NCBI GenBank assembly: GCA_016208165.1
Contig: JACQYL010000071.1
Coordinates: 14,207-75,140 of the forward strand
Length of the DNA: 60,934 nt
Direction: 5' to 3'
Origin: Deltaproteobacteria bacterium
Lineage (GTDB): Bacteria; Desulfobacterota; Desulfarculia; JACQYL01
The notes under the pieces: model-generated
Told to the model about the DNA's origin: nothing
Database searches by the model: none
What the model saw: the letters and a program-made list of their open reading frames with translations, nothing else
Shown here: positions 5,679-8,145 of the stretch, in pieces
How the letters are laid out: each line of letters opens with the position of its first letter
Position numbering within the stretch: position 1 is the first letter of the stretch
Program-made: the position numbers and the translations under genes

Positions 5679-7130
5679 TCATGCCTCCTCGAATTGCTCC
5701 CCCAGCTTCAGCGCCCGTTCGGCGAGCGCCAGGTTTCTTCCCACATAAAGAGCGTGGTTCAGATCCGAAATAGCCTCATCCCTCACCAGGTCGTGCTGGA
5801 TCCGCTCCGCGTGCTTCGAACGGTACTCCTTCAGCAGGACATTGTTGTAGAGATGACGCACCACAATCTGCCCTTCCTCCAATGTGATCCGAAAGAATCC
5901 ATGAGGGTCCTCGCGTAAACGATGTGCGCGAAGCTCGGCCACACTCAAGGCCTTACGGTATTTAATCTCATTGGTGGGGTCCAGACTGATGGAGTGACTG
6001 AATACCGTGAGAGCTCCCTTGGCCAGTCCGGATCGCTCACACACAAAGTCCAGGATCCGAATGAGGCCGTGCACGTTCTGGAGCCACGCGTCGATGGCAT
6101 TGTGAGTCCGGTAGGAAGCGGTCATGCCGAGGCGGCCTTCCGAGATCCGGAAAAACAGGGAAACCAGGCATGGATTCGCTTTACGATCTCGGAAATCCGC
6201 TGCGGTGTCCCAAAGCGAGATGAATTGATGGCGGCTTTCCGGATCGGATGCCAGACGTTCGGCGGCCAGACTCAACGTATCGACTCCGAAGTAGCTCCTC
6301 AGACGATTTCCGTATGTATACTCAAGCAGAGAAGGAAGCTCGCCGTCCATGATCTCGTCCCGATACCGGCTGAATTCCTCGGGAGAAAAGCCGTATTCAA
6401 CGAGCGCATCGTCCGGATCTGAGGTCGGGTCCGCGATGACGACTTTCAAGTTCTGCAGCTCTTTGCGTACCCCTTTTTTCAGCTCCACCTTTCGGCCGAA
6501 TCGAACCAACTTGAACATCAGCTGCTTCCACCCCTCCAGGGGAGTCTCTGAAAGAACGGTGTGTTGAAGCACCGAGCTCGGAAAATGGCCGATTGGCAGC
6601 GTCTTGGGAGGGATTTTAACTCGATCCGATTCAGTGAACCGGCGAGCGGGGTCCCGGCGAACCGATTGAAAATACCGTTTGAGACCGGAAAGGGATTCGG
6701 GCGTGGTCAAAGGACCCACAGCTTCCATTCTAGGCGGAAACTTAAAGAGTTCAGGCCGCAGAAGATCGTCGAGGATTCCCTCGGTGCCCTTGATCTTGTT
6801 GGCCCTGATGCCGAGAAACTCGACCTTCTCGACGCCCTCGGAGAAGAAATTGGTCAGTTCCCGAAAAGAAGACGACCGATTTCGGCCGCACACCACCAGG
6901 TGGGTGATCTGCGGATTGTACAGGAGGTTGCGAATCAGGTGGGGCAAGCCGTTACCATAAAGGGTGCCAAAGGCGACAATGGGCGACGTCGCGGGATTCA
7001 AGTCAATACCCTGCTCCCGAAACACGTCAAGGATCTTTTTCGGCCTTGACCAGAGGGTGATCACACCCACAAATCCGCACGAATTGATGCCTATGAGCTT
7101 GTTGCCGTAATGTAACGGTATAAACTTCAT
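5679..7130 (-). CDS. MtrA/DUF4346-like plus thymidylate-synthase-like fusion protein
   Basis: A 483-residue two-part protein. The first 90 or so residues (GFVGVITLWSRP, then HLIRNLLYNPQITHLVVCGR) resemble the N-terminal fold seen in MtrA of methanogen methyltransferase and in DUF4346 pterin-binding proteins. From about residue 265 it resembles thymidylate synthase: EYTYGNRLRSYFG, then ANPC with a Cys (about 321) in the place of the ThyA nucleophile, SYRTHNAIDAWLQN matching the Arg and Asn of the nucleotide pocket, and SHSISLDP where ThyA has THLYSNH. The active-site Cys is kept but the following His is replaced by Leu and the H-x-Y pair is altered. This suggests a pyrimidine (hydroxy)methylase on an unusual substrate or one-carbon carrier; that is inference. 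The ATG overlaps the stop of the ParB-like gene as ATGA. Confidence 0.7.
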   Translation of the reverse strand: MKFIPLHYGNKLIGINSCGFVGVITLWSRPKKILDVFREQGIDLNPATSPIVAFGTLYGNGLPHLIRNLLYNPQITHLVVCGRNRSSSFRELTNFFSEGVEKVEFLGIRANKIKGTEGILDDLLRPELFKFPPRMEAVGPLTTPESLSGLKRYFQSVRRDPARRFTESDRVKIPPKTLPIGHFPSSVLQHTVLSETPLEGWKQLMFKLVRFGRKVELKKGVRKELQNLKVVIADPTSDPDDALVEYGFSPEEFSRYRDEIMDGELPSLLEYTYGNRLRSYFGVDTLSLAAERLASDPESRHQFISLWDTAADFRDRKANPCLVSLFFRISEGRLGMTASYRTHNAIDAWLQNVHGLIRILDFVCERSGLAKGALTVFSHSISLDPTNEIKYRKALSVAELRAHRLREDPHGFFRITLEEGQIVVRHLYNNVLLKEYRSKHAERIQHDLVRDEAISDLNHALYVGRNLALAERALKLGEQFEEA

Positions 7131-7744
7131 GTACTTCGAGGCTTTTCGAAATGACCCCGCGGTCCTCCCACATTAGTAAATGCGGAATTGAAGTCCCGAT
7201 AGAGCATCTTGTTCTGTTCGATCCGATGCCATTTCTTGACGTAGCCCGAAGGAATGTCTTCCCGCACCTCCAGCTTCTCCCATCCCAAAGGAATGGGGAA
7301 AGCGTAATAAGGAAGTTCCTTGGGTACACCACGGACAAATACGACCTGGGGGATCTGCCATTCGAGGTAGGCCAGATAGATACGGTGCATTCCGTCGTTC
7401 ACGATCAAATGCAGCGACCCGTCCGCCTCGATGGACTCTTCCACGATAGGAGGCAATAGGTCTATGGGTTCTCCGAATCCCTCGATTGTCAAACGCAGGA
7501 ACCCGTCCAACCGAAAGAGATCAAATCCGCGCTCCTGAAGAGCCCATTTCAAGCTGCGGACCTTATCCAGTTCCGAACGCAGAATGTAGTATTGGGGAGG
7601 TGACAGATGTCTTGTCTGTATCTTTTCAAGTGATATGAACGTATTTCGGTATACGTACGTATCCCTGTCCTCGTGCATACAAACATCCCTCAGTCTCTGT
7701 ATCAACTCTGTTTCATCGAAGTGGTGGATCTCTTTGATTACCAT
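7127..7744 (-). CDS. ParB/sulfiredoxin-fold-like protein, partner of the thymidylate-synthase-like gene
   Basis: A 205-residue cytoplasmic protein with no membrane segment. Residues 100-126 (PPIVEESIEADGS, then IVNDGMHRIYLAY) carry the DGxHR signature of the ParB/Srx superfamily, whose members include DNA-binding CTPases, nucleases and small-molecule kinases such as the SerK/SbnI type. There is no helix-turn-helix domain as in chromosome-partitioning ParB, and no parA nearby, so partitioning is unlikely. The start has AAAGGA seven bases upstream. It is the first gene of an operon with the thymidylate-synthase-like fusion (4-base ATGA overlap), so the two products probably act in one pathway or complex. 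A kinase or nucleotide-binding role is inference. Confidence 0.65.
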   Translation of the reverse strand: MVIKEIHHFDETELIQRLRDVCMHEDRDTYVYRNTFISLEKIQTRHLSPPQYYILRSELDKVRSLKWALQERGFDLFRLDGFLRLTIEGFGEPIDLLPPIVEESIEADGSLHLIVNDGMHRIYLAYLEWQIPQVVFVRGVPKELPYYAFPIPLGWEKLEVREDIPSGYVKKWHRIEQNKMLYRDFNSAFTNVGGPRGHFEKPRST

Positions 7745-8145
7745 GTCCGTCCTTTGTGTTCCCTCACACTACGCGTGCGCCGGGGACTTTCCGCTTTCGG
7801 GATGTTCATCAAGGTTTTCGTTGCCTGCAACGAATGTTAAGTGTATCGGACTATTAAACAAAAGGAGTACCCTTTTTTGGAAGTACATCCTTCAAGGCAT
7901 GGAAGTGAGCGTCTCTCCGGCGAAACCCTCTCTCGCCGAGGCTCACCCGAACGGCCGGCTCCATACCTAAGGGAGAAAAGAGGGGCCGGAATCCGAGTGC
8001 CTGCGCGGGTTTTTTACGAGTGCGAAGTCGCCGGCATGAAAACCTCCAAGACCCGATCCTAGGTTCGCAGTAGACCGCCGTATTGGAGGCTTTCAGCCTT
8101 GGCCCCGATGAGCCCGGGCTGTCGAGATCTTCAAAGTCGTAGCGC
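7745..8145. other. Intergenic region upstream of the TS-like operon
   Basis: About 400 bases. It contains the palindrome at 7817-7834 and a small CGGCGA/TCGCCG inverted repeat near 7918-7940. The frames here have no ribosome-binding site and no recognisable sequence. I see no gene. Confidence 0.4.
7817..7834. promoter_or_regulatory. Perfect 8-2-8 palindrome upstream of the ParB-like/TS-like operon
   Basis: TTCGTTGC-CT-GCAACGAA is a perfect inverted repeat centred about 80 bases before the ATG at 7744. Its size, two-base spacer and position fit a dimeric repressor operator for this operon. No regulator gene is adjacent except, at some distance, the LysR gene at 9558. No convincing sigma-70 hexamers could be fixed around it. 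Confidence 0.45.

Follow-up and report, generated by a model that had tools for sequence, protein, structure and literature searches.

The DNA analyzed here (the window) is a stretch of 60,934 nucleotides from contig JACQYL010000071.1 of a Deltaproteobacteria bacterium (assembly GCA_016208165.1). Its minus strand carries a pair of genes that probably encodes a two-protein de novo thymidylate synthase (TS). The first gene of the pair (7127..7744) codes for a protein of 205 amino acids that belongs to the Parb-CE family (PF24392) and has a ParB/sulfiredoxin (Srx)-type fold. The second gene (5679..7130) codes for a protein of 483 amino acids in which an MtrA-like domain, an archaeal-type TS core and a DUF4346 domain are fused, and which we propose to be the catalytic component. 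The two reading frames share the four bases ATGA (7127-7130), exactly as an earlier sequence-only reading of this DNA had placed them.

The two proteins and their conserved residues

The TS-fold core of the fusion protein comprises approximately residues 190-402 (5925..6563, minus strand). In the AlphaFold2 model (mean pLDDT 93.8), residues 185-402 superposed on structures of the TS superfamily with VIA Z values of 23.7 for the flavin-dependent phage dCMP hydroxylase AfhB (9iqu), 21.7 for the CMP hydroxymethylase MilA and ~19-20 for ThyA. The hit list for the whole model was filled by TS-type structures. AfhB and MilA, the closest solved folds, act on other substrates, and their entries are TS-fold proteins 217-319 residues long that lack MtrA and DUF4346 parts. 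The best match to a named TS family was the methanogen TS (TIGR03283), which covered residues 199-381 (183 residues, E 1.8e-32). Unlike the members of that family, the core is joined to two further domains, and its score of 112.5 bits lies below the equivalog cut-off of 174.55. PF00303, the family of ThyA, matched residues 269-379 barely above its curated cut-off (24.8 versus 24.3 bits, E 1.4e-5), and the identity of the core to ThyA is only ~14-16%.

The sequence-only reading had described an extra N-terminal DUF4346/MtrA module. The MtrA-like part is indeed N-terminal, but DUF4346 is found at the C-terminus. The former extends from residue 1 to ~158 (6657..7130, minus strand) and is homologous to MtrA, subunit A of tetrahydromethanopterin S-methyltransferase: the family profile of this domain alone retrieved MtrA structures (8q3v, E 2.6e-7), in agreement with the NCBIfam MtrA models. 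The histidine of the 'GH' motif of MtrA is a cobalt ligand. The corresponding position (residue 88 of the window protein) is occupied by Ser, Ala, Val, Thr or Gly, and never by His, in 63 members of the family. Since this ligand is missing, the domain is unlikely to bind a corrinoid, and we disfavor corrinoid chemistry as its function. The DUF4346 domain (PF14251; residues 407-481; 5688..5912, minus strand, from the profile match and aligned ranges) was recognized with an E value of 2.9e-16 and stands in the place of the ThyA C-terminus. The structure alignments with ThyA stop at E. coli residue 224, where DUF4346 starts, so that nothing in the fusion aligns with the last 40 residues of ThyA. 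The DUF4346 part found no match in the PDB.

The active site was compared in an alignment of the 63 family members with E. coli ThyA; the pairing of E. coli Arg21 with Arg170 by MAFFT was unreliable, as was the Glu58 column, and neither was used. The equivalents of E. coli Tyr94, Arg126, Cys146, Arg166 and Asn177 (Y273, R300, C321, R341 and N352 in the window) are present in 63 of 63 proteins, among them the nucleophile Cys321 (codon 6168..6170, minus strand). The order of Cys, Arg and Asn that had been read from the sequence is thus that of a thymidylate synthase, corresponding to Cys321, Arg341 and Asn352. The residue following the nucleophile is Leu instead of His, as had been noted, but this is no peculiarity of the fusion, as Leu is normal in archaeal-type TS and stands at this place in the standalone proteins L075, L077 and L079 as well.

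Three other positions are altered. In ThyA, Asp169 contacts the pterin, and His207 and Tyr209 contact the 3'-OH of the sugar of deoxyuridine monophosphate (dUMP). The Asp169 position is Asn in 63 of 63 bacterial members (Asn344; codon 6099..6101, minus strand). The His207 position is Ser, Thr, Gly or Ala and the Tyr209 position Asp, Asn, Ser or Gln in all 63, the window protein having Ser-Leu-Asp at 382-384 (codons 5979..5987, minus strand, placed by alignment); the loss of the H-x-Y pair seen in the sequence-only reading is therefore real. By contrast, L075, L077 and L079 retain the equivalents of all three residues. The same is true of four divergent viral homologues with the architecture of the fusion (L176, L178, L179 and L180), which form one well-supported clade apart from the bacterial proteins in a quick tree; no Parb-CE gene was found on their contigs, which may be fragments. 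It is possible that the altered residues and the ParB-fold partner arose together. Viral contigs L172, L173 and L177 speak against a strict link between them, as they have the altered residues yet no Parb-CE, possibly because the contigs are incomplete or the Parb-CE protein of the host is used.

The partner matched PF24392 with 230 bits against a cut-off of 23 (E 1.1e-68), and its AlphaFold2 model had a pLDDT of 93.9. Sulfiredoxin, SerK, SbnI and ParB appeared together at the top of the fold search, with modest VIA Z values of ~5-7 (6.7 for Srx and 6.2 for SerK) and a Foldseek E value of about 2e-3 against Srx. The invariant residues are E102, E106, D117-G-x-H120-R121 and K170-K171, which confirms the DGxHR signature (D117-G-M-H120-R121 in the window) that the sequence-only reading had assigned to ParB/Srx proteins. 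Overall, structure prediction and profile searches upheld the TS core (VIA Z ~19-24), the MtrA and DUF4346 modules and the ParB/Srx-type partner.

The partner shares the fold and the DGxHR motif with sulfiredoxin, the serine kinases SerK and SbnI and the ParB CTPases. With 205 amino acids, it is too short to contain the DNA-binding and dimerization domains of ParB. In sulfiredoxin, the catalytic Cys precedes HR; as Met119 replaces it in the partner, we rejected a sulfiredoxin-type repair of the TS cysteine. Kinases of this fold keep the DGxHR motif and the glutamates. The kinase activity suggested by the sequence-only reading is thus possible, as predicted from the motif and the glutamates, and by analogy the partner perhaps catalyzes an ATP-dependent phosphotransfer. 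The ParB/Srx fold includes free serine kinases that use ATP and can also act as a binding switch (PMC12704722).

Parb-CE was also seen in other contexts. A Solirubrobacter locus (L138:9409-12559) has two tandem Parb-CE domains, the second of which ends an open reading frame of 857 amino acids of otherwise unknown content. On phage contigs L182, L183, L185 and L186, Parb-CE adjoins terminase/portal genes or a clamp-loader gene, and no fusion was found nearby; the terminase large subunit gene of L183 (9598-12078) carries an inserted intein/LAGLIDADG element.

Distribution of the pair and absence of known thymidylate synthases

De novo synthesis of DNA precursors requires thymidine monophosphate (dTMP), and to our knowledge ThyA and ThyX are the only bacterial enzymes that make it. 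In the host genome (95.5% complete), the fusion was the sole TS-family match, and neither ThyX (PF02511) nor another ThyA nor FolA was found. We surveyed 63 genomes of the host's class. The fusion was present in 28 and ThyX likewise in 28, while only four had both (Fisher p 2.8e-5), showing that the two are largely mutually exclusive. Of the 28 genomes with the fusion, 26 also had Parb-CE (p 2.7e-14), which was otherwise found in a single genome of the class. A standalone archaeal-type TS is present in five genomes that lack the fusion, four of which have no ThyX either, and seven genomes, most of them incomplete but G016 among them, had no detected TS. The standalone proteins, which occur in other families of the class (L075, L077, L078 and L079:8045-8800), consist of ~240 amino acids and keep the classical residues; the L079 gene clusters with genes for HisG, HisI and an RlmN-like radical-SAM protein.

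A scan of 84,980 species genomes yielded 80 fusion loci. The carriers include Desulfofundulus, Desulfovirgula, Armatimonadota, Desulfobacca, Desulfacinum, Desulfonema magnum, Syntrophobacterales, Nitrospirota, Thiomargarita and its relatives, Magnetococcales, Azospirillum, Roseomonas, Phycicoccus, Solirubrobacter and others. From these, we studied 50 further genomes selected by the presence of the fusion, from Firmicutes, Armatimonadota, Desulfobacterota, Nitrospirota, Proteobacteria and other phyla. ThyX was present in one of them and a canonical ThyA in three, all actinobacteria, so 46 had neither enzyme (thymidine salvage genes lay outside the search). In another four, a weak second TS match was noted in a short frame, which leaves the fusion as the sole TS candidate in 42 of 50. 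The PF00303 cut-off was passed by some match in 45 of the 50, including in three a separate canonical ThyA as well. The absence of both ThyA and ThyX is unusual, as they are reported in ~65% and ~35% of microbial genomes, respectively (PMC9931769). Assembly gaps are a disfavored cause: in Desulfonema magnum (G094), whose chromosome is finished, there is no TS candidate other than the fusion, and the chromosome of Smac51 (G002, given as 93% complete) argues in the same direction.

The two genes of the pair, treated as a unit in the sequence-only reading, also occur together across genomes: in 26 of the 29 class genomes with either gene and in 49 of the 50 further ones, though at many loci Parb-CE is not within several kb of the fusion but elsewhere in the genome. 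None of 14 control genomes had Parb-CE. FolA, whose function is coupled to that of ThyA (PMC9931769), was detected in 11 of 57 carriers and was absent from 46.

Gene neighbors were counted within 3 kb of the fusion at 84 loci. Parb-CE was present at 51, and dCMP deaminase and a HAD-family hydrolase of ~230 amino acids at 37 each; at two loci (L124 and L139), the hydrolase is naturally fused to the TS fusion protein. The product of dCMP deaminase is dUMP, the substrate of thymidylate synthase. Phages carry genes for dNTP supply in clusters. On viral contig L178, NrdA and NrdB are followed by the fusion, with DNA polymerase downstream; on L177 the fusion is near NrdA, and on L175 the order is HAD hydrolase, Parb-CE, deaminase and fusion.

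Predicted function and competing explanations

The pair is found where ThyA and ThyX are lacking, together with dCMP deaminase and, in a phage, beside ribonucleotide reductase. We therefore read its product as dTMP. Formation of dTMP from dUMP by the pair, in place of ThyA and ThyX, is probably the correct prediction and provides the simplest account of the absence, the neighbors and the fold. With ThyX, whose fold and sequence are unrelated to those of the fusion, the pair would share the presumed product, and either can be present in a genome that lacks FolA. The details of the chemistry (the pterin as a donor, the independence from dihydrofolate reductase and the activity of the partner) are much less certain than the role in dTMP formation.

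Several observations weigh against this assignment. Four class genomes have ThyX along with the fusion, although one of the ThyX hits is broken. In G016 (96% complete), ThyA, ThyX and the fusion all went undetected, and absence alone is therefore no proof of replacement. The p-values overstate independence, because the class genomes are related and the 50 further genomes were picked by the presence of the fusion; in addition, many of the genomes are metagenome bins. In the three actinobacteria, canonical thyA is located within ~1-11 kb of the fusion or the pair, in two cases with folA beside it, so ThyA and the fusion are able to coexist. Finally, Asp169 and the His207/Tyr209 pair, with which ThyA contacts the pterin and the sugar of dUMP, are replaced in every bacterial member.

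As for the mechanism, the conservation of Cys, Arg and Asn supports a start of the reaction as in ThyA, and the replaced pterin and sugar contacts together with the frequent absence of FolA suggest that the chemistry is altered. The TS core would attack C6 of dUMP with Cys321, and a one-carbon unit would pass to dUMP from a reduced pterin, which the MtrA-like and DUF4346 flanks may hold. The reaction probably departs from the classical route, where the pterin acts as reductant too and dihydrofolate is set free; perhaps the pterin donates only the carbon and something else serves as the reductant. The ParB/Srx-fold protein would be indispensable and depend on ATP; in the simplest case, it would act as a small-molecule phosphotransferase on the substrate, the pterin or the enzyme, and the HAD-family hydrolase associated with many relatives may undo or finish this step. 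Such an enzyme would represent a third mechanistic class of TS, with the ThyA fold but rebuilt pterin and sugar sites, free of dihydrofolate reductase, and working only with a ParB-fold phosphotransferase (often also a HAD phosphatase) on a substrate or cofactor that has been phosphorylated or activated in some other way. We put this forward tentatively, as a mechanism that is quite possible but short of probable.

The best-surviving alternative agrees on dTMP and differs on the mechanism: the fusion would be a classical TS coupled to dihydrofolate reductase, the ParB protein a non-enzymatic chaperone or regulator, and an unrecognized dihydrofolate reductase would replace FolA. The TS fold with its catalytic Cys, Arg and Asn is compatible with this, archaeal-type TS also stands alone (L075, L077, L079), and a ParB fold can be a binding switch (PMC12704722). 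Nevertheless, we regard it as rather unlikely, given the replacement of D169, H207 and Y209, the lack of FolA in most carriers, and the invariant DGxHR motif and glutamates of the partner, as in kinases of the same fold.

A modified pyrimidine nucleotide, as proposed in the sequence-only reading, is no longer the best assignment of the product. According to this idea, the fusion makes a hydroxymethylated or methylated nucleotide, perhaps a ribonucleotide, for a cofactor, an antibiotic or modified DNA. The nearest structures, AfhB and MilA, indeed come before ThyA, and the sugar- and pterin-contact residues are altered; Asp384 might favor a ribose diol. However, a side pathway leaves unexplained why 46 of 50 carriers are devoid of any other ThyA or ThyX. 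Moreover, conserved nucleotide-modification genes are lacking beside the fusion, and dCMP deaminase is a frequent neighbor. In ThyA, Asn177 selects uracil over cytosine, and its equivalent is kept. We thus consider this explanation improbable, and the absence of ThyA and ThyX, the deaminase and the phage ribonucleotide reductase point to ordinary dTMP. Least of all do we expect a nucleotide-targeting defense or conflict module with the TS core as a sensor: the Pfam name Parb-CE (in which the meaning of 'CE' is a guess) and the presence of Parb-CE in phages would fit, but the distribution is housekeeping-like, mostly with a single copy per genome across whole families, and coupled to the loss of ThyA or ThyX, the catalytic Cys is invariant, and no defense genes are conserved nearby.

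The data thus point to a third arrangement for making dTMP in lineages whose TS gene seems to be missing; that a small ParB-type protein constantly accompanies it is unexpected. If true, this would fill a gap in the metabolic models of many sulfate reducers, Magnetococci, sulfur bacteria and Armatimonadota, give Parb-CE and DUF4346 their first functional setting, and provide an enzyme with altered pterin and sugar sites that is open to direct testing. In open-licence papers, to which the search was confined and which it covered for Parb-CE, DUF4346 or MtrA with TS, genomes lacking both synthases and a third TS, no description of the pair was found.

Other features of the loci

A perfect palindrome, TTCGTTGC-CT-GCAACGAA, is located at 7817..7834, 73 nt upstream of the start codon of the partner gene, and had been taken for an operator. 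The palindrome is exact and could be a local regulatory site. As an operator it is no more than a candidate, because the 61-kb window contains about ten distinct exact palindromes of the same class, and the palindrome was absent upstream at all 14 related loci; a conserved operator was rejected for the latter reason. No tRNA or Rfam family was detected in the window.

In the second family of the class, the gene order is mostly Parb-CE, deaminase, fusion and UvrD-type helicase, and at most loci the helicase gene follows the fusion immediately (e.g., L046:3980-6142). In some Armatimonadota and related loci, the fusion is followed by a gene for an RNase H-like exonuclease (PF13482; e.g., L087:9398-10264).
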